Shown here: positions 22,590-64,000 of the stretch, piece after piece | Position numbering within the stretch: position 1 is the stretch's first letter | Layout of the letters: the number at the start of each line of letters is the position of its first letter | Origin: Taeniopygia guttata | Lineage: Eukaryota > Chordata > Aves > Passeriformes > Estrildidae | Reading direction: 5' to 3' | DNA: 64,000 bases | NCBI RefSeq assembly: GCF_048771995.1 | Contig: NC_133063.1 | Coordinates: 16,100,063-16,164,062 of the forward strand | Notes under the pieces: generated by a model | The model's database searches: none | What the model was told of the DNA's origin: nothing | What the model saw: the letters and a program-made list of their open reading frames with translations, nothing else | Program-made: the position numbers and the translations under genes

Positions 22590-23060
22590 CTGTCTCGGTG
22601 GGGAGGTGTCCGAGCGAACCATCAGTCAGTCGGCAGGCGGGCTGGGCAATCGAGGAGCCGGCGGCGGACCGGGAGCGACAGGGCCGGCAGTCCGCGGGAG
22701 CACACTCTTCCTGGGAGCTTGGGGGGCGGAATTACAGCCGCCCGCGGTTTATTAATAGCGCCGCGCCCGCGCCAGTACGTGTGTGGCAGAGATACCCCTG
22801 TCCCAGCACCTACCCCCCCACTTTACAGCCACAGCTCATTCTCCTCCTTCTCCTTCTTCCCGGGAAGAGGACGGGCGTCCCCGGCACTGGCTCCGCCCCG
22901 CCTCACCTCGGATGCCCTCCGCCGCCTCCGCCTTCCTCCCTCCCGCTCCGCCTCCTCCGTGCCCGCCGCCCGTGCCCTGCCCCGCCGGGTCCCGCTGCCA
23001 GTGCTCCCCGCCGTCCTCAGGGTCCCCTTTTATCCACTTCCAAAGTCTCCCGGACTCCTG
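22590..23060. promoter_or_regulatory. orphan CpG-rich block, right half of the pair
   Basis: This second GC-rich block includes many CG dinucleotides up to about 22770, then a long C/T-rich stretch with poly-C runs to 23060. At about 22748-22757 the AT-rich TTTATTAATA lies among CpG-rich sequence and reads TATTAATAAA on the minus strand, a possible TATA-like element. The plus-strand open frames that cross it (up to 237 codons) are rich in Pro, Ser and Arg and match no recognised family. Confidence 0.5.
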
Positions 23061-38404: not shown

Positions 38405-40094
38405 TGTGACCCCACACAAGAAAGACCAACAGTTTGACAAAGACCTCATCCCCACAAGTTGCTTTATTTTTATAAGGATGCCTTTAAAGCACCCTTATAA
38501 GGGTGAAGTTCTCACAGAGGTTTTGTGCCATTGTGGTGCCAGCCTCGGGCAAAGCTTTGTGCCCGTGAGAGGTGCAGAGGAGCAAATCAAGCAGTTTCAG
38601 CCTGCAGTAGGTCAACGGGGCTCATCAGGCTCAGTAGGTCATCAGGCTCAGAAGCATGGACGTTTTCCTTGGGACTGCATTACTAGGGCTGTCTCTGTGA
38701 AAGCTTTGTTAGAAAGGATTAGCAGCACACTTGGGTGTTTTCCTTGTTTAGTGAAATCAGGTTTGTGCCAATCTTGGATCAAAATGAATAATAAATCTTG
38801 AGAGATTTTGGTAGCTATTTTGTATAAGTGCCTATATTTCATGGAAGTATCACCGCATTTGGAAGTCTCTTTGCCTTTCTCTGATTTGGTTTCATTATGG
38901 AGAATACAGAGGTAACCCACTTGTCACAGTTGTGCGGTATTTTTCACAGTAGCTAAAGTCACCACCTAGTCCAGTTTAATTCTACTCAGAGCTGTCTGGA
39001 CACCATCTGCAGATTTTGGGTTTGTTGTTTTGGTGTTTTTTTGTAGTAAATTTGTATTCATATTACTGATCTGTTATATCCTTAGTGTGTTCCTGTCTGT
39101 TAACCACCTCATAAAATCCTTTACAAATATTGGTTTTAGCCTGTTCAATAGCTAAATGATGCAGCCTCTTGCAGTCCACAGCTCAACCTGACGTTGCAAG
39201 AGCCTTTTTTCTCGTTTTACTACTGAACTGAACATAAAATAAGCCTCTCACCTGTCAAATGCAAAAACCTGCAAAAAAACCCTACTTTGGAGTTCTTTGG
39301 AATTTTTCCTCTTGCTTTGGAATTCTTTCCCTGTGAGATGGGTTATGCTCTTTAAAGTCTGTGTGTCCTGGAAGATGCCTTCAGCAAGTGCAAAGACAAC
39401 TTCTCAGGTGGCAATTCCTCCAAGCCTTGGTCCAGTAGGGGATGGACACATAGAAGAACCTTTTGGACCTGATCTGCACCCTTTGACAGCTGATCCCAAA
39501 CAGTGCACTGGAGCTGAGGTGACCAATGCAGCCTTGTTGCAGGCTTAAGGCCATGCATGGGTGTGGCCAGCATGCTGGCCCTGCCTGATGAATTCCTTGC
39601 CTGCCAGAGAAGGAGACTCCCACTCTGGTTCCTTGTTGGAACACATCTGTCTTCCTCATTCTCTTTCAAAAACAGGAACTGCTTGCCCATGTCCTTGTCC
39701 CACAGATATTCTTCCGCCTCTGCTTTTTATCCTTTATCTTCCAGCTGCAATGCTTTTTGGCTTTTCTCAGATATTAGTGCCTAGCACTACACTGGCAGTC
39801 ACTTATCAATTCATGCGTCGGTTTCATCAATCTTGTGATTTTATATTATCCACAGCCTTTGAAAACTACCTTAGACCTGTTTCCTCACATTTGCAAGGCT
39901 GCTGTGCCATAACTAGGCCAAAAGTACTATCAGGCTCCTTCCTTTATGAGAAGCAGCAATATTTTATGGGCTGTGGCCCAGGACTTATGATCAGAAAAGA
40001 CCAGGGTGGGGAAACAAATGTGCCCAACAGAGCTGGAGTATTGCAGAGACTAGCAATAGACCTTTCAAAGGAAATAGGCGGAAGGAGACGTGGT

Positions 40095-40540
40095 GGGGCC
40101 GCACTCGGCGCTCAGCGCTCTGCCGCAGCCGCGCCGCTCCGCGCTGCCCCGCACGCTCCGGCTGTCCCCTGCACATCCTCACACCGCTCTGCTGACACGG
40201 CTTCGCCACTTTTAGCAAAGGGAGTGGCCGCTGGATGTCACTGTTTGGTCTGCGAGAGACAGACACGCGGACATTTTTCTCTGCCCCGAAATACAGGAGC
40301 TGGCGTCCTTACGGACAAAACCGGAGAAGCAAGCCCGATGAATCCAGCAGGAAGCCCGAGCTCCCCGGCGCGCCCCGGGACAGCCGTTCCTGGCGGTCCC
40401 TCCCGGCAGCGCAGGGGATCCCGGAGCGCCGGGGACAAGCGGGGCCCCTGCTAAAGGAGAAGGGACACTGCAAGGCTGGGACTGCTGGCTGAACCGCGGG
40501 GAACCTCGGCCGAGGTACTCGGTCCGGTTCAGCTCTGTGA
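40095..40540. promoter_or_regulatory. CpG-rich end of the left arm with nested palindrome
   Basis: CpG density rises abruptly in otherwise AT-rich intergenic DNA, giving a short CpG-island-like block. It holds the perfect 14-bp palindrome ACCTCGGCCGAGGT (40503-40516), itself enclosed by GCTGAACCG (40488-40496) and its reverse complement CGGTTCAGC (40525-40533). An identical block lies in the other arm at about 57093-57538. Promoter activity is possible but unproven. Confidence 0.5.
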
Positions 40541-41229
40541 ACTTTGTACGCTTCGCACACTTCGAGAAGCAAAGAGGACTTTTTCACATATGCAGCACTG
40601 GGAGATGGGAGGTCATTCTGGCACCGGCCGTGCAAGGTAGAAGCACAACATTGCTCCCTTCCAGTCCTTTCTCAATTATCTCCTCTAACAGAAGTCTGTG
40701 CTGCAGATACTCAGGTTTCCAAGTCATTCTGCTGCTTGAAAGCTGCAGTTGCAGAGCGCTCAAAGTCTGCAAGTGCCGGATTGAAGCAGGTCCTGCAGCC
40801 TGGATTTGTTGCTCTGGCCTGTGAGGTGTACAAATTTCACACAATCCTACACTACTCAAGCCACAGTGCCTTCCTTCCCCTGCAAAGGCCTGCCCTGGCT
40901 TTAAAGCAGGCCTGGACACAGAAAGTGAAAGCTTGTCTCTATGAAAACCTTTTTCCCTCAAGGGACTTCCAGACATCTGTTGAGACAGGGAGCCACAGAA
41001 AAGGCTGTACTGACCATGTGCTGAGCACCTGGCATCTCTCCTGCACTGGGGACTGCTGAGGAACCCTGTCTCTGGGAGTCGTTATTCAGAAGAAAACATC
41101 CTTGAAAGACAAGGAGATACGATAACTGTGTCCTTCTCACTTTCGGAACTTCTGACACCATTTTCTTGTGTGCCATAAGGCTGAGCACTCGACATGGATG
41201 GAAGTCAGTGGGAGTTGCCTTCTGAGCCA

Positions 41230-42937
41230 CTCAGCAGGACTACAAAGATCTCATGAGCTCATGCAAAGAGAACATTAGAAGAGACAAATCCCAACTAGAA
41301 CTGGATGTGCGGGGAAAAGTGGGGACACAGGATGAGGAAAAGGCTGAAGTATGTAATTCCTTCTTTGCCTCAGCCTTGAAACGCAACCAAGTTGTTCTCT
41401 GGGTAGCCAGGACCCAGTGCTGGAAGGCAGGGACCGGGAGCAGGACAAAGCTCCCAAACTCCAAGGGGAAATGATTAGAGCCACACCACTTAGACCCCCA
41501 CAAGCCTGTGGGGCCAGAGGGCATTCACACAAAGGTGCTGTGGGAAATGGCAGAAGTGTTCACCAAGTCACTTGCCGTCATTCCCCAGCAGTCCTGGCTA
41601 ACTGCAGATGTGCCAGGCAAGTGGACCTTGGCAAAAGCAATGCCCACGCATAAGGCTGACTTGGGCACTGGGGAGGTCAAGGAGCAGATTCTTTTCAGAG
41701 CCATGGCACAGCACACGCAGAACAAGCAGGGGATCGGGGCCAGCCTGCACGGCTTCCTGAAGGGCAGGTGCCGCTTGACCAGCCTGATCTCCTTTTAGGA
41801 GCAGGTGACCTCATCCAGTGGATGAGGAGCAGACTGTGCGTGCTGACCACCCAGATTTTAGTAAAATCTCTGACACTGTTTCTTACAGGATACTCTAGGA
41901 GAAAGTGGCTGGTGTGGCTTGGAGGAGTGCACTGCTCACTGAGTTAAAAGCTGGTTGGTTGGCCAGGAGCTGCATCCAGCTGGCAGCCAGTCTCCGGTGG
42001 TGTTCCCAGGGCTCAGTCCTGGGGCCAGCCCTGCCTAACAGCTGTGTCGATGGTCTGGACAAGGGGATGGAGTGGCCCTCAGTGAGTTTGCAGTGACACC
42101 AAGCTGAAGGTGTCAGAAAGGATCTACAGAAGTCCCCGGACAAGCTGGATTGATGGGAGGAGGTTGGTGGTGTGAGGTTCAGCAAGGCCAGGTGCTGTGT
42201 CCCGCCCTTGGTCACAACAGTCTGCTGCAGCATTCCATGGGCTGGGGCAGAGTGGCTGGAAAGCTGCCCGGTAGGAAAGGGCCTGGGGGTGCTGGCCCAC
42301 AAGTGTCTGGACGTGAGCCAGTGTGTGTCCAGGAGGGCAAAAAGGCTACTGGCATCCTCCTTGGGTCAGCAGTGGTGTGGCCAGCAGGTCCATGACAGGG
42401 ACTTGTCCCCCTGTACCCGGCACTGGTGAGGCAGCGCCAGGAATCCTGCCTTTGGCTTTGGGGCCCTCAGCACAAGACATTGGGGGTGGGAGCAAGTCCA
42501 GAGAGGGGCAAAGCTGGGGAAGGGTCTGGAGCACAGGATTTATGAGGAATGGCTGAGGGAGCTGTGGGTATTTAGCCTGGAGCAAAGGAGGCTCAGAGGG
42601 GCCTTCTCACTCTCTAGAGCTGCCTTGGGGGAGGTTGTAGTGAGGTGGTCTCTTCCTCCAGGGAAGTGGTGAGAGGACAAGAGCAAAAGGCCTCAGGTTG
42701 TGCTGGGGGAGCTTCATTTTGTCTGTGAAGAAAGGGTTTTCACTGAGTGGTTTGTCAAGCCTTGGAACAGGCTGTGCATGGAACACCGGAGTCACCATGC
42801 CTGGAAGCCCAGTACACAAAAGCTGTTTGAATGTGGCATTTGGGGACATGTTTACTGATGCACTTGGGAGAGCTAGTTCATGGTTGGACTCCATGGTCTT
42901 TGTGGTTGTTTCCAACCAAAACAATTCCATGATTCTA
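41230..42937 (+). repeat. CR1 LINE, degraded ORF2 and 3' tail, inside left arm
   Basis: The order and wording follow CR1 ORF2. CTCATGAGCTCATGCAAAGA is followed by GATGAGGAAAAGGCTGAAGT and TTCTTTGCCTCAGCCTTGAA. A frame MGPEGIHTKVLWEMAEVFTK comes next, matching the CR1 reverse-transcriptase motif MGPDGIHPRVL. Then LHGFLKGRCRLTSLISF, and finally the CR1 3' end TTTCCAACCAAAACAATTCC plus GATTCTA. Segments of the RT domain are missing and many stops are present, so the copy is inactive. It predates the duplication because both arms share its decay. Confidence 0.9.
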
Positions 42938-43278
42938 AAGCAGTATTCAGAAGCACACTACTTCAGGAAGCTACTTGGGCTTTTGTGCCTCTTGTCCCTT
43001 GAACCTGGCCAGCATCTTGGACATCCTGAGTAAGCAAGAGCTTTGTTCTCCATCCTCTGAACCTGCAGCCAGTTCTGATCAAGCATCTGTGCAGCTGATT
43101 TGGATGAGGGAGTTGATCTTCCCAAAAATGGTGTTTTCTGGGTGCTGTTCTACTGGATGGGGCAGTGATGTGACTGAACTCAGAGACCACTGGGTGTGGG
43201 GTAGTGAGGAACAGGATGTTAGGTGAACAGACTTTTAATAATAAAACTTTTATTTACTATCTGTTGCACTCATTCCAA

Positions 43279-43400
43279 CTTGGAAGCGGCTGCCCACATA
43301 AGTAGGCTGGCTTAAAATGAGTAACCCTGGAGGTATTTAGGCGACATGATGCTGTGATTTTTAGGAACAGGATTTAGTGTTGATATTGGTTTATATATCA
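43279..43400 (+). repeat. second CR1 LINE 3' fragment just outside the left arm
   Basis: GGAAGCGGCTGCCCACATAA, CCCTGGAGGTATTTAGGCGA and TTTTTAGGAACAGGATTTAG follow the CR1 3'-region order (GGAACAGGCTGCCC..., CCCTGGAGGTATTTAA..., GCTTAGGGACATGG...). The piece is in plus orientation, decayed and lacks its tail. It starts some 48 bp beyond the arm boundary and is not present beside the other arm. Confidence 0.7.
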
Positions 43401-46400
43401 ACGTAAGGATTTTAAATATCTTTTACAACTGAAGCAATGCTATGACTTTCCATGCACTGCCATAATGCTAAAACTCCATCTGTCCTCCTGCTCCCATATA
43501 CAAGAGCTAAGGACCTTTTCACAACATTCATCCAGGACATAGAAAAGTGGAGTATGATCCCCCCCTCTACATCTTAGATTTGTCTAAGAACATCCCCCTC
43601 TCACATCTCCCCAGAAAGCATCTCTTCAGTTTCCCATCTGTGAGGGTTCTCGGGCAAAGCATTTTCAGTCAGCAAACTATTAGAAACTATTCCTTGAGGC
43701 AGACTTACCTTAAGTTATCTTAAGGATTTCTCAGAGTGCAGTTTGAAGGGTCTCAGGCAGAGATGATATTGCAATACATTGGAAATCTTTCAAAGTTCAG
43801 AGTGCATTTTATATGATGCATAAAAAAGGAACACCAATGATATACCAGCTGCTTTTCCTGCTCCCTGTTTTATGGCATATGTTTTGACCCTCCTAATCTT
43901 GGAAATCAAAATAAAAAATAGAGGGGGAAAAAAGCTGTTTAATGATTCCTTAAAGGACTCATATATTAGCCAAGCTCCTGGTTACTTGAGAAAATAATAT
44001 GTAAAAGGTAATGGGTATGTCTTGCACAAAAAATTTTGGGAATACAAAGGCAGTTATGAACTAATGCATTAGGCAACTACTAGGCAGATTTACCAGTCTA
44101 ACTTTTGTAACATAGTTGTTTCAGACAGCCATTATGATAAGTTCTTATGGAGGTCCAGCGCTAAATCACACTCTCCTTCAGTTTCATGTTTGCCACATGA
44201 ACCATTGTAAAAGTAAAAGGACTGATGATGGTCGAAGCTGGTATCAACAGCATCTCTTCAATCAGTCTAACAGTCTGGAATTTGGGTGGGGTATTACTAC
44301 TGGCTGTTTAATGCAGGGCAAAAGCTTAACTTCAAGGGAACTTGACTACTGCATCCACCCAAGCAGCTGAGTAATGACAAGATTCACAGGTTTATTTCTC
44401 TCTCTGAGCCACATAGGACCAACTGTAATATATCCACTTCTGTATATAAATAATAAATAAAAATAATAATAAAAAGGGAGACTATCCAGGATTGTAAAGG
44501 AATGCAGAGAATCCCTGCTTGCTAGTCTATCTGTCTGAAACCCCAATACTCAAGTCTAAGCAAACTTCATCTAATTTTACAAGAGGAAGTTGGGTAGTCT
44601 CAAAGTTATAAGTTCCTCTGCTTTGCACTTCCAGCTGTTCTCAAATATAAATTAGTTAAAGCAGGAAGCCAAGTGACAAAACTCTATCACTGAATACTCT
44701 TCACACCTCATGTCTTCCTCCTTTTGCTATCAAAATATCAAAAATAGTACTAAATTAACATTCTGAAACATTAAGTAAGCAACACCTCTTATGCTCCTGT
44801 GTACCAGTTTATGTTTCCACTGTGACCACTAGAATGGGCACAGATTAATTGAAATGGGATCCAAAGGTACATGTCCAGGCTAGGAGCCAAATAGCACTGT
44901 GGCTATACAAAGATCAAGTAAATCTTGATGAAAGAGAACACCTGATAGGAACACAGAGATCAAAATCAATATTTTATTATCTAAATAAAACAAAACTTTC
45001 AAAACCAAACTCTACACTAAAAACTGTCTTCCCCTAGAGAAAGAAACAACAATATTTACAATTTCTGAACAGTGTATCAAAAATGCAAATAGAAGGATAA
45101 AGGTAATTTGAAGACCAAAGTCTCACCTTGTTCAAGCCCATATTGCTCAACTGATGCAACAAAGTTTCTTAAATTGGGCATTTAAATAACTAATAGAGCT
45201 TGGCACAAAAAATTAAATGGCAATGAAGTGGGATCAGTGAAGTTGGCTATTTGTTCTGAAGAGACAACCATCTAAACTCACATGACTAAGAGCTACCTCA
45301 GATTTCTCTTAAAAAAGATGTATCCATCTTACTTTTCTTATGGCTTTCTACCAGAAAATACAAAACAAAACCAAACAAAAAAGAAACACTACAGCCCACT
45401 TCTGATATAAACTAGTGAAACTAGTGAAGCATAAACCATGTGGGCCACAGTGATTCACCAGAATTTACATATTAGGTGTATGCAAAGTTTCATCTCCTGT
45501 CAACAGGCAACCTAGCTTAATATCCTTGATCTGCTCTGTGAAAGCTATTGTTAAGAATATCAAGGAAAAACATTGCTCCAGCTACCAGTACAAGAGTTGC
45601 AGTGATCAGGGCTGAAAGGAGTGATAATTATCTTCTACTCCAGGCATAGCAGCATACTGCAGGCATATACTTCTATTACTGTCATCATTGATGGCCACAT
45701 TTCTAAATTTAACATCAGACTCCTAGAACCTGCTTATGCCCACAAATATTATAATTCATAGCAGATGATTAGCCAGGGCTGTAATGCATGAAAAGGTAAG
45801 GGTAAAAATATCTTTTGCTTCACCTTTAAGAGAAGCAAACTTTGAGCATTTTTGAGCAACTTCCTGAGCATAATCTTGGAAAGAAAAGAAATAGAGCATT
45901 TACCTGTTGACACACATACACAGATGGTACCTTGAGCCCAAAAGAAACTCCTGAGGCCAACATGGATGCAAAAGGTGAGCTCTGCTATCCAGCTGTCACC
46001 TTTCCTCCTGGCAAAATTAGTTGGCATGGGAGATGGGGGGCAGAGAGTGTCTGATTAGGCAGCATTTAGATAAAATTGCACCTGTATCAAAGCACTGTAC
46101 ATATCCCAGCCATTCACCTCCCTGCAAGAAAAAATGAGATCATCCCAGAGTAATGGGAGCAGTGCATGGCACAAATTGACTGTAGGGTGCTATGGAGACC
46201 AGAAGATTTCACCACAATCCCCTGGGACTGTTGGCCTCCTGAGTATGCAGAGTCCCAGGCACACCTGTCTCCTTGTCACAGCAACCTGGGTTACCTCACT
46301 TCCCATTTCCCACTCCATCTGCATGTTACCCTGTGGGGTGGCCAGCTGCAGGGCTCAGAGTTCAGACCATGGCACCGATTTTCATCTGCAGAATCACCAA

Positions 46401-49400
46401 CAAGCAGAGCAGAACACGGCATGAATGGGGTTCATTCATCAGCATGAGTCTCATCACCCACCCCTGTGCTGCCTTCCCTTGAGCCTCGCTCCAAGCAGGG
46501 CTCCCTGCTGCCAGGTCCCCATCTGATTAGCACCAGTGTCCCAGAGCTCCATGGTGGTAATGCTAGGCTCCCATAAAGCCAGAGTTTTCACTTGCTGAGT
46601 GCTCTGCCTCACCCCTGAGGGATCTGCACTGCCTTGCATTCATTCATAACATGTGCAATTAAGCAAACTAAGAGGCTTCATTCAACGGATGAGGCTCTGG
46701 GGAGATCACAGGTTGCTTGCTGTTAGTTGCATGGTCACCTCTGTCCTAAATGGAGGCATAAAATAAACCACCAATCCCTTCCAGTGAGGAAGTGTCTCCA
46801 AGGAGAAAAGAGCAGCTGCCAACCAAAGGCCAGAGGTAGAGATGGACAGCTGCAACAGAAATGTTGAGCATTAGTTAAGGAGGGTGCTTTAATGAGCTTG
46901 TAGCTCATAGGTACAGAGTGAGGTTAGAGGGTTAAACTGTGATTAGAGTCACACTTCTTTCATTGCCAGTCTTTGGGTCACAAGTGATCTTTACATGCTG
47001 TTGCCTCAGGTGCATTCATTTGCTCCACTGGCGCTACAATGAACCATCACAGGACCTTAGTAAGCAGACTGTTGATAACCATTATTGGCACGGATCTGCT
47101 TGAATTTTGATGCACAGAAGGAGCACCATTTTGTTGAGCACTTTACAGAATACTAAGAATGTTATAATAGTTGCCACCTGCACTAGTATCTGGTACTGGC
47201 GGGGTCATTTATGTTTCTTGAGTTTTGTACCTGTTTCTGTTGAGATGGTGGATTCCAAACACCAGCTGAAAGGGTCATACCACTATCAGATCTTGCAATT
47301 TGCAATTTAGAAAAGCATTCTCCAGAGTACTTAATTCAGACTTCTTCCCATCCTCTAAAACCATAGACATGCTCATGCATTTCTATGGGCTTCTTACCTG
47401 CATTTGTTCAACATGCAGCAACTGCCACCAAAAAAACCACAAAAAATTTCAGGATACAATGATAGCATTTATCCTACTGCTTGAAAATATTCACTTTATT
47501 TTTGTAAAAAAGCACTGGAAAATATACAGCTAGATAAAAGCCAGAAAGAAATATCATACAACTAAATAGAAGTTCTAGGGTAAGCTTTGAATTGTTACAA
47601 TTTTTAAGGTAATGTTTTGACCAATTTTTTTATTGATACAGTAGTTCATTGAGTTCACCTCTCTTAGCATACAGTACATGGACTTTTGGGGCAGATATTG
47701 AGAATCTTTTGAGAATCATTCTCTGCTTGAATGATCCGTGAAATACCTGAAAAATGCTTTCTTAGCTTTTGACTAGTTGCAAGCAGCTCATTCTCTCTGA
47801 CCAGATAGTAAGAGAACAGGACATTTTAAATTGTTTGACAAACTGGAGTATATCCAAATCCTTCTCTGGGAAATTAATTTTTGTACATATGAATCTGAGG
47901 TGTGTTTTTTAAAAGATTATGCAACTAGCAATTGAAACTTCTTCTTCAGTTAAGACTTCAAGGAAAAGCCATGCCTTACAAAATCCCCAGTCAGGTTGAG
48001 GAAATCAGAAGCTAAAATTTCTATCATAATGTAATTAAATGATGAGTTGGGATTGTATATTTGAAAGTGTTTAGTACCTAATCCTTCCTGGGTAGTTGAA
48101 AATGCAAATACCAAAGAAGTTGATTTTCTCTCCTTCAGCCAAATAGACCTTTTACAACTGAGTTATTGATAAGGTTATTCAAAAGGGTCACAGACTTAGC
48201 CATAGTAGGTTAATTAGACTGTATGAGAGAGATACAATAATATTTTAATACAAGCAGTTCAGTGGTCCTACAGGCTTGCAGGTCCTTCAAAATTGTAACG
48301 TCTAAAATAAACACTAGAATGTCTTTTATTGTAGTAGGGGAGATCTAATTACCAACTATCATTTTCCTATCTCCCACATTAAAAATCATTATTAAAGTTG
48401 CAAAGCCCTGAAAAGGTCCTCCATGCATTCCCTTTCTGCACAATAGATTTGTTCAAGCACTTTTCCTCCCTTGCCCCAATCTACCCATAGTGCTGATTTA
48501 AAGTATGAGCAGTTATGCTGTTTTTTCATCAATGCCTGCACAGCTTTCTCAGTCTGTTCTCAAAGTTCAACTTGTTATTAGTCATTATGACTTTTTCTGT
48601 GATAGTAATTTTAAATTATCAATTTTATTAATGAATTTATTTCCACAACAGCTTTGATATGAATAAATATTGATAATCTCAGATTACCAAAGGGCTTGTA
48701 TTTGTAAAAAAAAACCCAATTTGAAAAACTTGTCATCAAGACTTCTAGATCTCTAGAGTGTTTTAAACTGAATTTAGGTGGTGTTTTCTACATCTTTAAA
48801 CACATGTTGCCTTTACAAATGGCCTCAATGTAGCTGTCTGGAAAACAGGGAAGATTTGATGACTGTGAAAAGTTAATGTACAACAACTTAACAAAAATCA
48901 ACACAGGTTTGTGACAGAAACATGGACTGACCTATGTCTTCTCCATCAGATTTCATTTTTTTGCGCTGGAATCTCCTGTGTCAATCAGAATCCCTGACTG
49001 GAAGTAAGTATTTTGTGACAGAAAATGTCCCTTTAGGAAAACTGTATACTATTTAGGATGTAGAAAAACTGCAGAAGCATAAACAGTCCTTCTTCAACAG
49101 CTGACCCCAAATCAAACCATTTTCCTCCCTGTCTGTGCATGCCACCATCTGCCTCCCCTCTAGCCTTCTCCATCTCCTTGTGAGCCAGGCCAGGGAAGGG
49201 AGGCTTCCCTTAACAGCACAGGATTGATTGGTAGGGTCTTGTCATAATTGGTTTATGCATCAGGCATCAAGGAAGCAAAACAAACTCCACAATTCTAATA
49301 CCAATTCAAGATGAGAATTTTTAAAAGCCAGATGAAAACCCAACTGCATTTTTCCCTGCATAAGGTGTTGTTAGATACCAATCAGCTTTTTCAGACTCCA

Positions 49401-52400
49401 GAAAGAAATGAAATCTGACTCCCGCAGACAAACGCTTCTATTGCTGTACACCTCTTATTCATCCCCAGAGCAATTCCATCTTGTGCACAGTCTGAGGCAA
49501 AATCCTGTGGACAAAATGGTAAATAATCATATAATTAAATTTGCTGAACACAGACCTCAGGGTTGTAACTGAGGCTATATGGGTACCTCAAAGTGTAGCC
49601 AATTCATATGTAGGATATAGAATTACAGCATAGATGGAGCTTGCAGTATTAGAGCTTTATGCCTGACCTGATGCAGTGACTGCTAGAAGCTGGTGTCACC
49701 TTCAGGTCAGCAGTCAGGGTGGGTTGGCAGGCCTTCTCCTTTCACAATTAACACTCAGCCTAACAGCTCCCCACCACCAGTTCCCCCACGGCTGCCCCTG
49801 CCCAGCTCCCAGCCCCACCTGTCTCTTCCATCCATCTGTCCATCCTTGTCCCTACGTCCTACTCTCAGACATCAAAGAAGGCTGAGGAGATGAAAAAATG
49901 GTTCTATGAGCAATAGTTCTGTTGCTGAGCCTCAAGCAGATGACTTCAATTGCAAGAAATTGAATTGCTAGAAAGTGAAGACTCTCTATGTTGCTAAAAT
50001 TCTGAGAGGGAATATGCATGAAAGGATGCCTTCTTACTTTTAAGTTCACATCAATTATATTCCTCTTCAGCACTGCTAATCCTGGCTTACCTTCAGATAA
50101 ATAGAGAAAAAAATTTAGGTCAGTTTGACTTTGTGTGATACACAAACTCTAAAAGGAGATAGACAACTTGAAAGGATTTCACAAGATTCTGAGTGCCCTT
50201 AACTCCTGCACTGTTATGAGAGACCTATATAAAAGCCAACACAATATCCTGAGGAAAAAAAAAAAGGTAATTTAATCTAGGAGATACACCTAACATGGAA
50301 ATGTTAACTAAACAGTACAGCTGGTGATGCAACTGAAATAATCTTGTCTTTTAGCAGCAGCAATATGGAAAATTATGTCAGAAAGAAAAAAGCATTTTCA
50401 AATTGATTGTGAGCTCTTGAATTTATTACCTGGTTTTAATATTATAGCCCATACTGCAAGCATCTGATCTTGTCCATCAACAGAACTGGGGGCTGTCTTC
50501 TCCTCTGTTTACTGCTGTACAAAATTATAAACTAAAATAGGAAACTCCAGAGTGGCTAGGGAGAGAGTTTAACTCCAAACTTGTTAATGAAACCATAACC
50601 TCATAAATTCTAACATCCAAACTGCTGCAGTAGACAGTTTCCTGCTGGTCTGAAGCACATTTGTCTCAATGCCATTGCAGACTCTCAATAGTGACCAACA
50701 ATCACAGGAGAGGAACATGTGTTGTGGCTATGACTGCACAAACATAACTACCATTCTCACCTCTAGATCTTGTATTTATTGCCCATTTCATGCTCCTGCC
50801 TGTTCTCTATTTCTCCAGTCAGTCATGATTCCAGCCTCCCTCATAGGCTGCTTTCCATGTCTGGGAAGGACTTCTGAGGGATCTCATTACTCTACCAGCA
50901 GTCCTTCAAGGTTATTTGCAAGTCTCAATGCCTACAGAAAACTCATCTAGCCAGGTTGTTGATGGAGTGGCGTGGTGCTGTCAAATTACTTCCTTCTACT
51001 TGTCTGTTTCCTACACTCCCTTATCACATTGTCCTGTTACGTCCATGTCTGTTTTCTTAGCTGATACCCATACAGATGCTGCACAGAGAGGTCCTCCTCC
51101 CCAGCCTGGGCTACTCACCTCTGTGAAAACACAAGCACAGAGCAAGAACAGTGGCTCTGCTTCACCCAGAGAGGTGACTCGAGCAGCAGCAGCTTGGGAC
51201 GCAGCTGTGTCTCTCCCTGAGAGGATCCTGCAAGAAGCGCAAGCCCCAGCAGTGGGGCAGTGGTATAACCCATGGTTTGGGTAAATGACCTGGTATCTTG
51301 TTTTTATCTGCACGTAGTATTTGAAATAGACGGGGGTCCTATTCTCCTGTTTGTCAGCTCTCAGAGGGGTTTAAGCACAAAGTGTTCAGTTCAAGTGGTA
51401 CTAGAGAAACCTGGGAGCCTGAAATAGCATCTTTGGCGGCAACACAAAGAGAGAATATCCAAATGTAACAAAGCTAGGCATAAATCTATTAAGCATCCTG
51501 TTCTCTTTCAAGCACATTCTGTGAGTACACCTGCTCTATATACAGGCTGTATCTGATCCATGAAAGAGCTTTGTCTATTGTAGAGCACGACAGTTATAGA
51601 GGTCCTAATGACTCCTTTTTGTTCTTGGAAAAAAATACAAAATTACTTTAATTTTCAGAAAAAAACCAGCCTTTTATCTGCAGCTGCAAATTATTTAAAA
51701 GTTATTGGACTGTACTACATAGCAGGAGAAAGAAGGCAAATGGCCAGAGTTACTCTTCTGCCTTTTATCCACAACTTCCTTATGGCTGCCATAAAAATGT
51801 TCTCAAAAAAGTTCTTTACAATGACTCTAAGTGGAAGGCACCTTCCACATACTCTCACTGTAAAAGTGTGATACAAATCTCATAGCTAGACTTGTAAACT
51901 AATATGACTTTAACTTCTGCTTGGCCAAACTAATTCTAAAAATATTAAAACTTCTTCTGTCTTATCTTTAGCTGAAAGATTAATTATTTGGTGGGGGAGG
52001 AAGCAGTTCCAGATAATTGGAACAAGACGTTTTACATATATGGTTTAGCTAAGCAAGTCAAAGATTATAATCACCATAGCCGAATGTCTTTAGTTCAAAG
52101 CTCACAACATGATACAGATATAGAGTGCTGCTTGTAAAAGTTCCTGAGTTCACTCTATCATGGCTAAAGATTTCAAACCTAGGCATCCATATTCATATTC
52201 AAACATTTGAGTATGTTCCCTGATTTTCAACACTTGCTGCACCACTGTAAGCAATTCCTACGGGTTCTTTTGCAGCTTCTTCTCAGGACAAAGAACACTT
52301 TGCAAGAAAATTCTGCCTTGCCAGACCTGTTAAGTCTGGTTTCACATAGATTCCATGGAATGTACATTATATATTCAAAAAACTTGGCAGAGATGAAAAG

Positions 52401-54638
52401 CATTCCTATATCCATATTTAGGAGTTTAAAAAAAATATGGCCCACTTTAACACTACTCAGCCTTCTGATGCAGGTTTGCATGATTTTCCAATGACTGATC
52501 ACAAAAGAAGTTTGTCTGTCTTCTGGAAGATGAAGAAGAGTTCAGCCAGACCTACATGCTGTCATTAAGGCTAAAGATCTCATGCTAAAGCTAAAACCTA
52601 GAGATGACTATAGGGAATGGATGCAAGAACTGGAACTGTTCTGAATAAGGAATAGAAATGAGGATTAGTGAGCCATTCTGATGGGCTAATTACATCAGAA
52701 ACTTTCATAAAGTTATCAAGTATTGTCTCTCAAAAAGCACTTAGAGAGAAAGGCAAAGCTGTGCTACAGCCATATATGAAATATGTACGCACACTTATTT
52801 GTGTGTGCACATATACATTTAACATGCATATTCATACATATTTAACATCTAAATTACACTTTTGGTGTTCCAGTGCAAACAATCCCTATTACAAAAATCA
52901 AATATCTTATGTCAGGTCTCATTGCTCATTTGGTTCCTTCTAACAAAACACAAAGTGGAGGGAAAAGAGCTGTAGATAGCTATCAGTTCACTTGCTCCTA
53001 CAGCAGACAAGGATTCAACATTTGAAAAAGCCTACGAAAAGGATAGAAAATGCGACTACTGATGAAGCACTGGACCCTTACAAGACGGCAGCCAGACAAC
53101 AGAGCGGAGCTAGTCTGGGAGGGGAAGGACACAGCACCCCCATTTTCAAGAGGCATCAAAAGAGACTGCACTGTGTACTCCCCCAGGATTCTATGCACCT
53201 GCGCTCACCCTGACCACAATGCCTCATGCTGATAGCATACAGCTGCTTCCTTCACAGACACAGACTATAGCCTCACTTCAGAAAAAGAAAAGAATTATGA
53301 CATTTACATTCATTTACATCTGTGGACCTGCAAAGAGAAACAAGGGGCACTAGAAAGCATTGATTATCTATCCCTTTCTGCAATTCTCACTTCTGTCTGT
53401 TTTATTTTTTACTGATGCTGTAATACGTGGAAGGCACTGTTGTCCTCTCTCTCTCATCAATGTAGAGTTCATCAGTTGTCATCACAACAGAGATTACTAA
53501 CTCCAAGTGGCTGTCTACCCTGCTAGCTCTACCTCCAACAAGGCAGAGAGCAACAGAGCACAGAGGAGGTAGTTGGCCCACCCAGCTGGAGGCCCTGACA
53601 TTGGGAAAAATAACAGCTTGATGTAAGCAATTAACTGAGCTAATAACTCCCTCCACCTTGAACAGTCTTACTTCATGTCACAGAGTGGGACCATTCTAGT
53701 TTTTTGCCAAATTAATAATGCAAACACAACTGGAAATGGGGAAAATATATTATTTTGCCTGCAACTTCCCAAGTGGGAGGAAACTTGACAAGATTGTGAT
53801 AAATGGTTGCAACCCTTCCATTATTTCAAATAAGGCGAAACTGAAGGAAGATAATTAACGAGGAGAACTTCCACACTGCTACATACAGCAAGCCCTGATC
53901 TGTTGGAGACTTATGTCTATTTCCATGGATGCAAAATTTGAGACTTGCTGCCCTTTTGAAAGAATTCCCTTGGAAAAGAAATAATTTCCTTATAAGATTC
54001 AGGTGCCACAACACCCTAATGAATAAGACAAAGTCCTCTGAATTTAAAGAGCTATCACGTGGAGTAATTAGGGATTAAATTAGTTTGTGTCATAGCCAGT
54101 AGTCAGGACAAGCAAAGTTATTATGACAAATAGTCTTATCCATCTGAAGAATACAAGATCTCTGCAGCATTTGTGGAAATTGGGAATGTAAGGGTGAGAC
54201 ATTACTAAGTGTTGGAAAACTGAGCCCAGGCAATATTGTGTACAGAGAAGGACATGAAGGCAAAGCAGAGATGCAATGAAACGTGCCAACTCCTACTGCA
54301 GATGTAAAAACAACCTATTTGATGAAAAAACAAACAACCATCAGAAAACGCCCTTGTTGCAATTAGCAGGATAACAACAAAACATAACAAAACAACAGTT
54401 CCATGAGAGCATAAACCTGTTTTTACAAACTGTCAAGAAGCACACTAAATATATAAATCCATAAATATTTACCAAATACATATATTATATACCAGAAAGA
54501 CAGCTATGCCTTAAAGCCTGACTATTTGACCACAGCTTAAGTTCAATATTACCTGGCACAAGTAACCCAAATCCAAATCCTGGAGACCCAGGTGCCTAAT
54601 CAGAGACCCTTATCCAGCCCATTGATTAATACCAGACC
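43401..54638. other. spacer between the inverted arms, no gene recognised
   Basis: About 11.2 kb of mostly AT-rich sequence with no recognised coding exon, RNA gene or transposon. The longest frame (122 codons, about 50916-51284) lacks a domain signature. An A/T-only microsatellite built on AATAA units occurs at about 44443-44476. Confidence 0.45.
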
Positions 54639-54737
54639 TCTGTTCACCTAACATCCTGTTCCTCACTATCCTACACCCAGTGGTCTCTGAGCTCAGTCAC
54701 ATCACTGCCCCATCCAGTAGAACAGCAGCCCAGAAAA

Positions 54738-56403
54738 CATGGAGTCCAACCATGAACTAACTCTCCCAAGTGCATCAGTAAACATGTCCCCAAATGCCAC
54801 ATTCAAACAGCTTTTGTGTACTGGGCTTCCAGGCATGGTGACTCCGGTGTTCCATGCACAGCCTGTTCCAAGGCTTGACAAACCACTCAGTGAAAACCCT
54901 TTCTTCACAGACAAAATGAAGCTCCCCCAGCACAACCTGAGGCCTTTTGCTCTTGTCCTCTCACCACTTCCCTGGAGGAAGAGACCACCTCACTACAACC
55001 TCCCCCAAGGCAGCTCTAGAGAGTGAGAAGGCCCCTCTGAGCCTCCTTTGCTCCAGGCTAAATACCCACAGCTCCCTCAGCCATTCCTCATAAATCCTGT
55101 GCTCCAGACCCTTCCCCAGCTTTGCCCCTCTCTGGACTTGCTCCCACCCCCAATGTCTTGTGCTGAGGGCCCCAAAGCCAAAGGCAGGATTCCTGGCGCT
55201 GCCTCACCAGTGCCGGGTACAGGGGGACAAGTCCCTGTCATGGACCTGCTGGCCACACCACTGCTGACCCAAGGAGGATGCCAGTAGCCTTTTTGCCCTC
55301 CTGGACACACACTGGCTCACGTCCAGACACTTGTGGGCCAGCACCCCCAGGCCCTTTCCTACCGGGCAGCTTTCCAGCCACTCTGCCCCAGCCCATGGAA
55401 TGCTGCAGCAGACTGTTGTGACCAAGGGCGGGACACAGCACCTGGCCTTGCTGAACCTCACACCACCAACCTCCTCCCATCAATCCAGCTTGTCCGGGGA
55501 CTTCTGTAGATCCTTTCTGACACCTTCAGCTTGGTGTCACTGCAAACTCACTGAGGGCCACTCCATCCCCTTGTCCAGACCATCGACACAGCTGTTAGGC
55601 AGGGCTGGCCCCAGGACTGAGCCCTGGGAACACCACCGGAGACTGGCTGCCAGCTGGATGCAGCTCCTGGCCAACCAACCAGCTTTTAACTCAGTGAGCA
55701 GTGCACTCCTCCAAGCCACACCAGCCACTTTCTCCTAGAGTATCCTGTAAGAAACAGTGTCAGAGATTTTACTAAAATCTGGGTGGTCAGCACGCACAGT
55801 CTGCTCCTCATCCACTGGATGAGGTCACCTGCTCCTAAAAGGAGATCAGGCTGGTCAAGCGGCACCTGCCCTTCAGGAAGCCGTGCAGGCTGGCCCCGAT
55901 CCCCTGCTTGTTCTGCGTGTGCTGTGCCATGGCTCTGAAAAGAATCTGCTCCCTGACCTCCCCAGTGCCCAGGTCAGCCTTATGCGTGGGCATTGCTTTT
56001 GCCAAGGTCCACTTGCCTGGCACCTCTGCAGTTAGCCAGGACTGCTGGGGAATGACGGCAGGTGACTTGGTGAACACTTCTGCCATTTCCCACAGCACCT
56101 TTGTGTGAATGCCCTCTGGCCCCACAGGCTTGTGGGGGTCTAAGTGGTGTGGCTCTAATCATTTCCCCTTGGAGTTTGGGAGCTTTGTCCTGCTCCCGGT
56201 CCCTGCCTTCCAGCACTGGGTCCTGGCTACCCAGAGAACAACTTGGTTGCGTTTCAAGGCTGAGGCAAAGAAGGAATTACATACTTCAGCCTTTTCCTCA
56301 TCCTGTGTCCCCACTTTTCCCCGCACATCCAGTTCTAGTTGGGATTTGTCTCTTCTAATGTTCTCTTTGCATGAGCTCATGAGATCTTTGTAGTCCTGCT
56401 GAG
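54738..56403 (-). repeat. CR1 LINE, degraded ORF2, inside right arm, 3' tail deleted
   Basis: This is the same CR1 copy as in the left arm, in minus orientation, with the frame MGPEGIHTKVLWEMAEVFTK at 56125 downward. It stops at 54738, exactly at the junction of the 238-bp absence, so its 3' terminus is missing here while the left arm retains it. Shared decay shows a single insertion later copied by duplication. Confidence 0.88.
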
Positions 56404-57092
56404 TGGCTCAGAAGGCAACTCCCACTGACTTCCATCCATGTCGAGTGCTCAGCCTTATGGCACACAAGAAAATGGTGTCAGAAGTTCCGAAAGTGAGAAG
56501 GACACAGTTATCGTATCTCCTTGTCTTTCAAGGATGTTTTCTTCTGAATAACGACTCACAGAGACAGGGTTCCTCAGCAGTCCCCAGTGCAGGAGAGATG
56601 CCAGGTGCTCAGCACATGGTCAGTACAGCCTTTTCTGTGGCTCCCTGTCTCAACAGATGTCTGGAAGTCCCTTGAGGGAAAAAGGTTTTCATAGAGACAA
56701 GCTTTCACTTTCTGTGTCCAGGCCTGCTTTAAGGCCAGGGCAGGCCTTTGCAGGGGAAGGAAGGCACTGTGGCTTGAGTAGTGTAGGATTGTGTGAAATT
56801 TGTACACCTCACAGGCCAGAGCAACAAATCCAGGCTGCAGGACCTGCTTCAATCCGGCACTTGCAGACTTTGAGCGCTCTGCAACTGCAGCTTTCAAGCA
56901 GCAGAATGACTTGGAAACCTGAGTATCTGCAGCACAGACTTCTGTTAGAGGAGATAATTGAGAAAGGACTGGAAGGGAGCAATGTTGTGCTTCTACCTTG
57001 CACGGCCGGTGCCAGAATGACCTCCCATCTCCCAGTGCTGCATATGTGAAAAAGTCCTCTTTGCTTCTCGAAGTGTGCGAAGCGTACAAAGT

Positions 57093-57538
57093 TCACAGAG
57101 CTGAACCGGACCGAGTACCTCGGCCGAGGTTCCCCGCGGTTCAGCCAGCAGTCCCAGCCTTGCAGTGTCCCTTCTCCTTTAGCAGGGGCCCCGCTTGTCC
57201 CCGGCGCTCCGGGATCCCCTGCGCTGCCGGGAGGGACCGCCAGGAACGGCTGTCCCGGGGCGCGCCGGGGAGCTCGGGCTTCCTGCTGGATTCATCGGGC
57301 TTGCTTCTCCGGTTTTGTCCGTAAGGACGCCAGCTCCTGTATTTCGGGGCAGAGAAAAATGTCCGCGTGTCTGTCTCTCGCAGACCAAACAGTGACATCC
57401 AGCGGCCACTCCCTTTGCTAAAAGTGGCGAAGCCGTGTCAGCAGAGCGGTGTGAGGATGTGCAGGGGACAGCCGGAGCGTGCGGGGCAGCGCGGAGCGGC
57501 GCGGCTGCGGCAGAGCGCTGAGCGCCGAGTGCGGCCCC
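57093..57538. promoter_or_regulatory. CpG-rich end of the right arm with nested palindrome
   Basis: This is the mirror copy of 40095-40540. It carries the same ACCTCGGCCGAGGT palindrome (57117-57130) inside GCTGAACCG/CGGTTCAGC arms. The CpG-rich block stops at the arm boundary, 57538, and the flank beyond shares nothing with the left flank. Confidence 0.5.
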
Positions 57539-60404
57539 TGCACTACTGCCGGAGGGGCTGAGCCTCTCCCTTGCCTCTGAGGGAAGTCAGATAACTGTGG
57601 AAATGCGTTTGAAATCAAGTGTTTCTTTACTATATCTACGACACATTTTCCAGTATTAGTCCAACCAGCTTTCGTCAGGCTCTGTCTTTCTTCTTTAATA
57701 TCTTTGAGTTTGGCTACTGCTCACTGACACACCCCTGTCAAGTCTGGCAGGTACTGAAATTCAGAGATGGAAGTCTTTAATGTGCCACCCTACAAAAATA
57801 GAACTGGGACCCTATGATCTAGTCAGTATGATAGAAACATTCTGGTTCCTGTGCACTATGCTGTCAGGTTTGGAGGCACAGCAATCAGCTCTGAATATTC
57901 CCTTAGGGGAGGGGAGCCCCAAAGACATAGCGGTGTGTGAACCAGAGCGTATATGGCACCATATTTGGCCAAACTTCCCTGGGTGAAGTACATTGCTACT
58001 TCCTGTACTCAGCATCCAGGGCAAAGAATGAGTGGTTTCTCCCACATACCTTGGATCATAACTTCTATTAAAACATGTTAGCATTTTACAACTATTTATT
58101 GTATTAAAACATTTTAAAATATTTTTATCTGATCTGTTCGGAACAGAATAGAACAATTTTTAAATGCTTCTCTCTTAGTAGAGGCAAGATGAAATTCTTG
58201 ACCTTTTCTTGTACATTTCAGAGCAGTTTTAACAAATAATGCACAGTGTGCATTATTTTGTATTTCATTGTTGTATACAATTTGGAAAATGCTGAATTGA
58301 ATTCCAGTGTTAAACTTCCACAGAATAGCAACTTGTGTTAGGATTCATACTTTCTTGATTAACATATTTTAATATATATTTATTTTGTGCACCTTCTTCT
58401 GAAGCTAAAAAATTATTGATCTGCTGTGACATTTTCTCCTGGGAACACCATGCTGAAGCTAATAGACCTAGTGGATCCACCCATGCCCCAGGGGGATGGC
58501 TTGCACCCATCCCTGATGCTGGTGCAGGGAAACAGAAGCATACATGATACAGTTACATAAAACAGCTTAATTTATGCTATGACTAGGACTGCACTCTGAG
58601 ACTTTGGAGTTGCTGTAAGATGAGTAGGATCAGCTACTGTTAAGGGAACTTGTTTTGCTATAAATATCTATGGTGCTGTATTGTCTGAAAATAGTCAGAC
58701 CTTTTAGAAGAGATGAACTATGACTCACCTAACATAATCCTAAGGTAGGGCTAGTTTATTTTATAGGCTTAAGAATCTAAATAAGTACACAAAATTTCAG
58801 ATAAATATTTAAATTACTGCAGTAATGTAGTCCCTAGGTGTGACTGCACAGGGATGAGAGTGAATGTCCCTGCATCGCTGTGTACTTCCCCCTGTGGCTG
58901 CAGTTCCTCTCTGACATAGCTGAACTGGGGTGGGAATGCAGGCAATCTGCTCTGGTTAGAAAGCCAAAATGTTTCAGGGAGAAAACAATCCATGGGGAGC
59001 TGAGGACCAGGCTATGTTTTCTGGAACTTTGGTCCTTGCTTGTAACAGGGCACCCCTCAGATAAGACTGGAGCAAAGACACAGAATATTCTTTTAGACAC
59101 TTACCAAAAACTACTCATCAGAGCCTTTGAGATGTGGACTATTTATTCTACATGAAGCACAGATTAGCCTTTGTTGCTGCAAGTTGTTTGTCTGATTCTC
59201 TGAGAGAATGCTACAGTCTTAGGAAAATAAATAGCATGGTTGAAACGGATTAATTGTAAACTTACACTATTGACAATTGACAAGTTTGCTTCACAAATGT
59301 CCACTCAGGGAAAAGAAAGGTGGGACTTGGACATATAGTGTGAGAGTGATGTGGATTTTAGAGTTCATTGTCTCTATATTCCTTTGAGACTAACTTTTTT
59401 TCCTGTTCATTTTGTGCACACGCTCCTCATCTGCTCCCCTCCTCCACAAATTACAGTGCAGTTACTGTGGTTCAGCACTTGTGGGTTATAATTCAGATTT
59501 GTGACTAATATTTCTAAGGAGTTTTGCAGAATGTAATTCTTCAATCAGATTTAGTATTTTTACTGTTACTTTCAGAAGATTTATTAATAGCTAAAGATGT
59601 GTTTTTAGTTTCAAGATTTTAATTAGTGAGTAGCAAAATGCTGCATTGATAGTTGATTTTTTTGTTGTCTTTCAAATAAAGAAAAACTTTGTGTGTTAAC
59701 ATTTTCTATAATGTTCTTAAAACTTTGATATGTTATTTTCCCAGGCTTCTTAAGAAAATTCTCATCTTGTATTCTATGAACAAAAAAATCACTGGAATAT
59801 TTTGTGAGGGCAACTATCACCCCCAGAGACTGATTCTGTGGCATTCATGTGGCTGTTGAACCTTTGGCTATATGTTTGACTGGGGAAAGGTACAGCTTTT
59901 AAGTTTTAGAAGGTAGTAGAAGCAGAGCAGTCTTGCCACAGCTGTCAAACTTCTTGGTTTGGAATTCAGACTAGCAAAGGCAAAGGCAGTTTCACCCACA
60001 GTTCTCTGCAAGAGCAGCTTGTATCATCTGAGTTGTGATGTCTGTAACTGTTCATGGACTGCTATTGTTATTTCACATAACCCTCTCTGAGATAATGCTT
60101 GTCATTACTCCTCTCAAAAGAAAAATCCAAATATACTGTATTTATGACAGCAATCAGTTATTTGAAAATTTCAAAATGGAATCACATGAGCTTACTTTTT
60201 TTGTTGTTCCAGAAGTGTAACAGGGTAAATTTGAGCTCTCTATGCAAAACCAGTGAGGGCTGATGTAAGCTTGTGCTGCACAATGGTGTAAGTTAATGGA
60301 GTTCTTCTCCATTGTGTAATTAATGACATTAAGAGACTAGATCTCTGTCCTAAAGTCTACAAGATAACAGCTCATGGGAATATTACTTTTTTGTTGTTGT
60401 TGTT
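57539..60404. other. intergenic, no gene recognised
   Basis: AT-rich sequence without recognised exons, RNA genes or transposons. The plus-strand frame at 58880-59155 (91 codons) has no domain signature. Confidence 0.45.
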
Positions 60405-61013
60405 TGTGGTGGTGTGTTTTTTATTTAATTTTATTTAATTTGATATTTGTTTAGTGCCTGTTTAGACCGACCCCCCCCCCCCCCCCAGTCTCTTCCTCTC
60501 CCCAGCTGTCAATCTTCCCTAGATCATCCCTAACCCCCTCCTCTCCAAGATGTCAATTCTCCCTTTCCCTGCCCCTTTCCCTGGAACCTTCCCTGTCATT
60601 CTCCTTAACCTCCTCCCCTGCTTCCAGAGCATTCCCTGTCTATTTAGTGAGGCTCAACACCCTATTGGTTACGTTGTATTACTCCACTCCCCTGTTTTCC
60701 CTGATAGGTCTGTGATATGTTAGTCCTGCCCTAAACTCCTCCCCTGCAATTCCCTTATTGGTTGCTGTTCCTACACCCCTCCTCCTGAGTTCTTGTATAA
60801 AACCTTTGTTCGCCCTCCCCGGAGGGTCTTGGGGCTCACTGAATGAATCCATGCTGTTCAGCCCCAAGTCCCGTGTCGCCTCCATCTGTCCCCATGCCAA
60901 TAACTGGGACTGCAGAGCTTCACAGGGGGAGTAGCCACCTGTTCTCTTCCCTCGCTGCCCAGCACTCCACCGCTCAAGGTATCGCAGCGAGAGGAGCTGA
61001 CTGTGATACAACA
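60405..61013 (+). mobile_element. solo LTR of an endogenous retrovirus inserted in a GTT repeat
   Basis: This 609-bp block begins TGTGGTGG and ends GATACAACA, with the TG...CA ends expected of an LTR. It is flanked by GTTGTT on both sides (60399-60404 and 61014-61019), a possible 6-bp target duplication within a pre-existing GTT repeat. Inside are a 16-base C run (60471-60486), C/T-rich U3-like sequence, several ATTGG boxes, a TATA box TATAAAA (60796-60802) and a GC-rich R/U5-like end. No internal viral genes lie beside it, so it is a solitary LTR fossil. The clean ends suggest moderate age; the family is not identified. Confidence 0.7.
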
Positions 61014-64000
61014 GTTGTTGTTGTTGTTTCTTACTGATTGGCTGACTTTAGGTGAAGTGTGTTGATGTGAAAAATGCCAGGGAGACTAGAGATGTAGTAT
61101 TACCTGGAGAGAAGCATAATGATAACTCTTTGGTATAGGTTTAGTTTTTGTTTTGGAAAACTTCAAAGCTCCCAGTCTTCATTGAATGGCAGTCCCTGAG
61201 AAAGGATGAAATTAAATCTGATTAAAAAGTTTAGCATTTCCTTCTTAGATACCTGAAATAAAGAGCAGTTCTCCAAACCATTCCTCTCTGGAAGTGCAAC
61301 TGATATATGCAGAACTGTTTTGAGTATCTGATATCTTTCTGATTCAATTGAATGATCTTCTTCCTGTGCTTCTTTTTCCTTTGGCTAAAACATGTTACTA
61401 TCTCAGTGAAGGCTTATTTGTGGAGGCAGAAGATTCTGACCTTGGCAGATTTTGTGCCAGTAGAGTTTTTCAGAATTTTTGTGAGGAAGTATCAGAGCTG
61501 GCTGTAGCTGCATGAAGAGGTAGACAATGACTTCTTTTGTGAGCAAGGTGAGATGCCAGTTCAAAGTCAGCCATAGGTGCTAATGGATTAGTTGGTGTAC
61601 TTTGTTTTTCATGGAGCTTCTCTGGCTACAAAAGCAAGCAATACCACCAAGTTGCCATACAAAGGAGCATGCTTCCTCCAGGCTATGTGGATGCAATGTA
61701 GAGAGGCTCTGCAATTTGCTCCCCCTTTGCTGGAATGGTAGCGACAAAGCAAAGAAATTATTCCCTTCTTTTAAATAAACCCACTGAGAAATACTTCTTT
61801 CCTGTTTCTGATATTGGGCAGAATAAGGGACCCCAAATGAAATCTGGTCTCAGAGGCAGAAATAAACTGCAACATTCAAAAGGCCTATGTGTAACATAGT
61901 AAATGTTTTGGTTGCCTTTAAATCTGTAAAGTTAGAACAGTGAGAGATCTCAGAGAAGAGCAGCTAGAATTGCATCACTGCTTTACTTCCTTGAAAGCGA
62001 ATGAATATGAGTAAATGCTCCAGCAAGAACAGATGTTTTGATCTACATATCTTTTTTTCTTTTTTTCTTTTTTTTTTTATTGCAAAACAATTGTTACAGA
62101 AATTTCAGAAAGTTCTACTGTAGTAATTGCCAACTTCTGCTTTTTATTACGCATCTAAACACAGTCTAAAAGTGCATTGTGAATCCAGTAGACCTTTGGA
62201 AAGGACCATTTTCCCTAGTTATGTACATTTAGACAAATCATATTTGAAAAGCTTTGTACTAGTAGGAATTTGTTTAAAATAACATTTTAGTAATTTTTAT
62301 CCCTTTATAAATGATTGTTATACACTTACAAATGATAGCCCAAATAATAAATGATTAAATAGCTATTAGTACAGAATATTGAAAACACTGTTCCAGACAG
62401 CAGTAGCAGCAAATAGACTCTCATCATGTACAACAACTGCAGTGGTGGAAAACAGAAATAACTTTAATACCATTTACTCTTGTGCAGGCATAGAACTGTA
62501 TTTCACATCCAATTCCCTCTTCTGTCCCTTCCCCCTCCCTCCCAGATATTAAAATAAACAAGAGTTATCACTTCCCTGGAGCAGAAACAGCAGCTATTTA
62601 ATAATCAAATGTTTTTCCCTAACAGTCTTTTGAAATAAATATTGTGTGGCTCTATGAATGATCTGAAAGCATACTGCAAAATTAAAAAATCAGAGGCTGT
62701 TTCACAACCAGACTGTCTCAATGGCTCCATCATTTGACCTCCAAATTGAAGATAATATAGTGTAATCCATGCCATGACTCAAACTAATATTGAGTTAGAA
62801 ATGCAGAATAAATCAATTTCCTGACAGAAGTCAGAGTATGCCACTGAAATCAGTGGATTTTCTGCAGATTTGCACCAGCATCAGTAAGACTGTAATTGTA
62901 GTCAGTCATGGAGAAGAAAAGCCTGTGTGACCTGTAGTGTTCTGTGTGAGCTGTATGACTGGCTATAAAGCAGGGTGCAGAAACAAAGTTCCTCTGCATC
63001 CAGTACTACTGCTCCTATGCCAGTGTGTGGCAAGGACAGTGAATTCCATCTAGAGTAGTGAAGGGTTTCACCTTCACTACTCTAGACACCCCCACTGTTT
63101 CACTTCTCATCCCAGTTTGGACTGTGATTTTATCTAAGATGGTTGAAGGGAAAATTCATGCTAGGAATCTTACCCTTTTTTTTTTTTTGAAGAAGATGCT
63201 CTATACCTGGTGTCTCTCAACAGAACTGAAAATGTGGCCTTTATTTAACCAAAGACGCATATTTGTGCAAAAAATGCAAATCTATTATCATTTTAAAGCA
63301 GGGGAAGACATCAAAACTACTTCCAAGGGAAAGGGTTCCAAGGGAAATCCAGGGAAAAACATCTCACACTTTCCCTTTGGGTGACTATCAGTGTTTAACC
63401 TGAGCAATATAATAAGACATTTATGCTTGTTTTAAAACCTGCACCACACATTTTCAGGGAATTTTGTTTCACTGGCTCGCTCTAATACCTTTGATGACTT
63501 CTGCTCTCAGGACAGATACTGGCTTGCACCCACTGCAGTCATTGGACTAAGGCCGTGTGCTGCTACCAGCACTTTTTTTTGAGCAGTTATTCATGTAGTT
63601 GCATTTTCCATGCACTGACAGTTCCTAAGAAACAAATAGTTTTCTTCTCATACAAAAAATATACCTAAGATATTTATCCCCTGACAAAAGGCTATCCCTT
63701 CCACAAAAGGTACAAATCAGTTCTGTTGTTTTTTTTTTTTACCAAGAAATCTATAAATGGAAAATTAAAAAAAAAAAAAAAGAAATCTATGTCTGGAACC
63801 CAGAGGGATTTCCATATGCAGATGAATGGATGTTTTGGTTTTTCATTATATTTTCAAATTATCCCCTCACTGCCATTTGTTAACTGGCACTTGTGCTAAG
63901 AAAATAGTGTAGCACCTGATCTCTTCCAAAAAAAAGAGAGAGCCAAATGTCTGAGCACTGCTGTAGGTTCGCATTTTGTGTTGAGTATTCAAATTTCATA
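61014..64000. other. intergenic, no gene recognised
   Basis: AT-rich DNA with T-rich low-complexity runs (about 62050-62080, 63178-63188) and T and A runs near 63728-63781. Nothing coding is recognised. The 108-codon frame at 63058-63384 starts inside a perfect hairpin and has no domain signature. Confidence 0.45.
63049..63086. repeat. perfect hairpin, 16-bp stem and 6-nt loop
   Basis: TCTAGAGTAGTGAAGG (63049-63064) is followed after GTTTCA by its exact reverse complement (63071-63086). No mismatch occurs in the stem, and complementarity stops at both outer ends. It is too short for a typical microRNA precursor and has no transposon context. A template-switch mutation is the simplest origin. 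Confidence 0.85.

Follow-up and report, generated by a model that had tools for sequence, protein, structure and literature searches.

Inverted arms on a zebra finch sex chromosome

Do two inverted sequence copies resemble each other because they were made recently, or because they have been kept alike by gene conversion? The question is raised by a stretch of Taeniopygia guttata contig NC_133063.1 (assembly GCF_048771995.1, positions 16,100,063 to 16,164,062 of the forward strand; 64,000 bp, hereafter the window), in which a preliminary description had reported two nearly identical arms in opposite orientation. Our analysis confirms that the locus, on the Z chromosome of a bird, is an inverted segmental duplication of a known kind. 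The pattern of differences in the sequence suggests that arm-to-arm conversion has probably acted on it.

Geometry and content of the inverted pair

BLASTN comparison of the window with itself confirmed the duplication. It detected one long inverted pair, 40095-42895 against 57538-54738, with 99.75% identity across 2,801 bp (5,134 bits), and a second inverted match, 43132-43231 against 54739-54639, with 96% identity over 101 columns. In 204 kb of surrounding Z sequence this is the sole inverted pair with E<1e-20 and more than 90% identity. The arms are thus nearly identical as first described, but the figure of about 99.5% for two 3-kb arms needs correction, the main block being closer than that and the arms unequal: the left measures 3,137 bp and the right 2,900 bp, because the right arm is without 238 bp (42,896-43,133). 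This gap sits at a 2-bp TG microhomology. Beyond it, the inner blocks 43134-43231 and 54639-54737 differ by three substitutions and one single-base indel (about 97% identity, 98/99 bp). The spacer, previously put at about 11.4 kb, is 11,407 bp long (43,232-54,638). The features are as follows, with strand where one applies.

40095..42895, plus strand: left arm, main homology block (2,801 bp), 99.75% identical to 54738-57538 reversed
40095..40670: CpG island at the outer end of the left arm (a 200-bp scan gives 39941-40670, clipped to the arm)
41231..42936, plus strand: old CR1 long interspersed nuclear element (LINE) fragment of the left arm; relatives spanning 0.4-1.5 kb are 66-78% identical
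42896..43133, plus strand: 238-bp block of the left arm only, with the CR1 3' tail and the TG microhomology (the CR1 match extends to 42,936)
43134..43231, plus strand: left arm, inner homology block (98 bp), aligned with 54639-54737
43232..54638: spacer, no other close copy detected in the genome
54639..54737, minus strand: right arm, inner homology block (99 bp), aligned with 43134-43231
54738..57538, minus strand: right arm, main homology block (2,801 bp), aligned with the left main block
54738..56402, minus strand: right-arm copy of the CR1, without the 3' tail
56961..57538: mirrored CpG island at the outer end of the right arm (a 200-bp scan gives 56961-57690, clipped to the arm)

The arm boundaries are sharp at both copies and, by eye, the junction sequences show no target-site duplication, in agreement with the preliminary description. 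An older and longer palindrome was considered and rejected, as BLAST (E 0.05) found no inverted homology between the two outer flanks or between the two halves of the spacer. GC content rises from 0.46 to 0.84 across the left outer boundary and from 0.64 to 0.84 across the right one (50-bp bins, outside to inside). The shoulders of the CpG islands, compared as a clue to which arm is the original, are alike on both sides except for the GC-richer bin (0.64) by the right arm, and they did not decide between the arms.

The repeat inside the arms, which we take to be a CR1, has many relatives in the genome, as expected from the old CR1 reported there. Ten open frames from the arms and their surroundings, seven of which overlap the arms entirely or in part, had no Pfam match at E 0.1, which leaves room for spliced or untranslated transcripts; the window contains no Rfam match and no tRNA. 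No gene was recognised in the arms, gene content being common in sex-chromosome palindromes but not defining for them.

Genome-wide search for copies

We searched the whole assembly (1.14 Gb, 41 contigs), in which the window lies on an 82.2-Mb contig, C40. The search skips simple repeats and very common words, and the absences reported here are limited accordingly. The main block produced 46 matches, and those outside the arms are 65-83% identical, the longer ones 66-78% (best 40 of 4,930 candidate places). Its first 1,136 bp, which do not belong to the CR1, match the two arms only (both candidates scored). The spacer was searched in two halves (4 of 4 candidates): the first found its own place and weak partial matches on contigs C41 (76%) and C12 (75%), and the second found its own place only, each half matching its own place at 100%. 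The nearest 4.4 kb of left flank matched its own place at 100% and gave 14 short repeat matches, with no close copy. The right flank matched its own place and 40 others, all to one 0.6-kb repeat (best 40 of 489 candidates).

A segmental duplication consists of two copies of at least 1 kb and at least 90% identity that are not a common repeat. The length, identity and non-repeat content of the arms, together with the junctions described above, are those of an inverted intrachromosomal segmental duplication.

Sex-chromosome location

ATP5F1A has copies on both sex chromosomes in most birds. We obtained 20 exon matches for this gene, 10 on C40 and 10 on C41 (33.8 Mb), corresponding to one gene on each. 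Exon 1 of KLF9 has a single full-identity match, on C40, the 20 others being weaker (best 150 of 1,807 candidates). In chicken, KLF9 is on the Z (PMC11394431). We regard C40 as the Z chromosome and C41 as the W, and the Z linkage that had been proposed from KLF9 is supported by the placements of both genes. Since Z and W are both in the assembly, the source bird was most likely a female, hemizygous for the Z, if the assembly derives from one individual; allelic merging is then an unlikely origin of the second arm.

Age and distribution of the arm differences

Seven differences in 2,801 bp correspond to a divergence of 0.25% in the main block, within the >99% identity of sex-chromosome palindromes, the inner 98/99 bp being at about 97%. 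At the zebra finch mutation rate of 5.0e-9 per generation (PMC12047795), 0.25% represents about 250,000 generations and the divergence of the inner end some 3 million, with wide limits (inner-end divergence 0.6-8.4%). Beyond the 238-bp heterology there are 3 differences in 98 aligned bp, against 7 in 2,801 for the main block (Fisher P 0.004, rising to 0.037 if two neighbouring changes count as one event). Within the main block, four of the seven differences cluster in 109 bp (P 0.007), and the 805 bp adjoining the outer end, CpG island included, are identical between the arms (P 0.09). Taken together, the 10 differences lean away from the CpG island (P 0.035). Polarising five main-block differences with CR1 relatives gave a mixed result, with no clear donor arm.

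Such patchiness is what incomplete conversion leaves, and suggests that it has occurred here. The preliminary description had offered recent copying or recent conversion as explanations. The divergence of 0.25% is compatible with both. The way the differences cluster and the greater divergence of the isolated end speak for conversion and not for a single recent event, although with 10 substitutions this support is moderate.

GC content and direction of change

The main block has a GC content of 0.56, which puts it at the 98th percentile among windows of the same size in the 204 kb around it, and the flanks of the arms have 0.39. Between the CpG island and the CR1 (40,501-41,230) it is 0.505, the 93rd percentile. 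We aligned the arm CR1 with 19 other stretches taken from BLAST matches of at least 350 columns, shorter ones being excluded; most of these loci were chosen as best matches to the arm, and a search that used a neighbouring CR1 supplied five. Among the 20 aligned copies the arm has the greatest GC excess (+0.050, the next two having +0.039 and +0.033). At sites where at least 70% of the other copies agree, the private changes of the arm comprise 91 AT-to-GC and 67 GC-to-AT, against 563 and 863 for the 19 others pooled (P 1.8e-5); at 85% agreement the counts are 60 and 42 against 327 and 402 (P 0.011). The arm also differs from seven Z copies (P 0.006) and from six autosomal copies (P 0.001) taken separately. 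A CR1 at 35121-35620, about 4.5 kb left of the left arm, changed towards AT (16 AT-to-GC, 37 GC-to-AT; arm against it, P 0.0008). As a sign of GC-biased change in the arm CR1, these comparisons of sequence are suggestive only.

Alternative explanations

Insertion of one mobile element at two places in opposite orientation would account for the presence of a CR1 in both copies. However, the CR1 spans only part of the arm, 1.1 kb of the arm outside it matches these two places only (2 of 2 candidates scored), and target-site duplications were not seen; we regard this origin as most improbable, and the view that the pair is a segmental duplication and not two transposon insertions is upheld. An assembly artefact, in which one arm would be a misplaced haplotype or the product of a chimeric read, is slightly less remote yet still very unlikely: the arms are nearly identical and the locus is known from the assembly alone, but haplotype merging is made unlikely by an assembly, presumed to come from one individual, that has both Z and W.

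A simple young inverted duplication is the serious competitor. The 0.25% divergence would then be the age of the copy, and the clustering would reflect multi-base mutations or chance. Seven differences in 2,801 bp fit a single recent event and no outgroup indicates a greater age, so that this explanation keeps an appreciable, though clearly minor, share of the probability. Against it stand the uneven divergence of the main block and the isolated end, the clustering of the differences and the GC-directed change of the arm CR1. We consider it moderately likely that the arms arose by inverted copying, that the right arm lost 238 bp and that the main blocks were partially converted from arm to arm. 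Several points weigh against this history. The substitutions number only 10 in total, and the tests for clustering were picked after the data had been seen. The lean away from the CpG island comes from the inner block, the seven differences of the main block giving P 0.34 by themselves. The comparison is made within one haplotype of one individual of one species. Two of the 19 other CR1 copies, both on the Z, exceed the AT-to-GC ratio of the arm, which is 1.6 standard deviations from the mean across copies, and the GC richness could be older than the duplication. Finally, the mean conversion tract in zebra finch is about 32 bp (PMC12047795), which is short for homogenising 2.8 kb.

A putative history of the locus

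In the history that includes conversion, a Z piece of about 3.1 kb, made of a CpG island without known gene and an old CR1, would have given rise to an inverted copy about 11 kb away. The most likely route is template switching during replication repair, because neither target duplication nor flanking homology was seen. The right arm would then have lost 238 bp, as deduced from the left arm, which retains the CR1 tail. Since that time the main 2.8-kb blocks may have been partly homogenised by arm-to-arm gene conversion, while the piece of about 99 bp isolated behind the 238-bp heterology would have been spared and would preserve older differences. In zebra finch, CpG islands are enriched for recombination, with or without a nearby start site, and the GC bias is 59% (PMC12047795). 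Because of this preference, the CpG islands at the outer arm ends are candidate sites for the initiating breaks.

No coding function was found. The likely consequence, predicted here and not observed, is conversion and, now and then, inversion of the 11.4-kb spacer that lies upstream of KLF9. Flips of the spacer should occur less often than conversion, because in human Y palindrome P6 conversion outnumbers inversion, with 56 against 3 events in a phased set (PMC3723533).

Comparison with known palindromes

P6 behaves as proposed for the zebra finch pair, conversion being both commoner than inversion and GC-biased, but it was measured in 378 chromosomes (PMC3723533), whereas the zebra finch pair is known from one haplotype. 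With the 12 conserved primate palindromes described among mammalian X palindromes (PMC8981503), our pair shares inverted arms of >99% identity, location on a sex chromosome for which one sex is the recombining one, and arms GC-richer than their flanks, the deviation being in the same direction. The zebra finch arms are far shorter (about 3 kb), part of their GC excess comes from the CpG island and the CR1, and they are without a recognised gene, whereas 10 of the 12 primate palindromes have genes in their arms (PMC8981503). On bird W chromosomes, palindromes are reported in white-throated sparrow (as cited in PMC3403216) and in duck, with 38 palindromes of 15-346 kb (PMC7787181). They too are inverted repeats of a bird sex chromosome for which conversion has been proposed. 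In contrast, the pair described here is smaller and belongs to the Z, a chromosome with recombination in males, and recognised repeat makes up only about half of each arm.

Neighbouring features

The neighbouring gene, 24 kb from the left arm, is KLF9, whose coding exons were located by tblastn with the human protein.

15616-16092, minus strand: KLF9 coding exon (67% identity)
5460-5663, minus strand: KLF9 coding exon (100% identity)

Upstream of the promoter island of KLF9 (14591-17430), at a distance of about 4-6 kb, lie two CpG islands (21561-22180 and 22531-23140) tied to no gene that we identified. The repeat of about 0.6 kb in the right flank (60394-61015) has relatives 85-90% identical (best 40 of 489 candidates), several of which are paired about 2.7 kb apart like the two ends of a long terminal repeat (LTR) element; it may be a lone LTR. 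The 0.4-kb spacer element at 46239-46635 has two detectable relatives, on C41 (68%, 416 columns) and C12 (75%, 89 bp), and may be an old low-copy repeat or a conserved element.

A stretch of C41 was considered as a W gametolog and outgroup, for the arm CR1 has its best non-self match there and the spacer element also has a match, the two in the same order. This candidate was rejected, as the other matches between 60 kb of C41 and 204 kb of Z were scattered and without common order. Long CR1 copies akin to the arm CR1 occur there in opposite orientation about 13 kb apart on the W (C41:23547424-23549301 and 23562640-23563871), and the same 60 kb also has two inverted pairs of about 360 bp with 94-97% identity.
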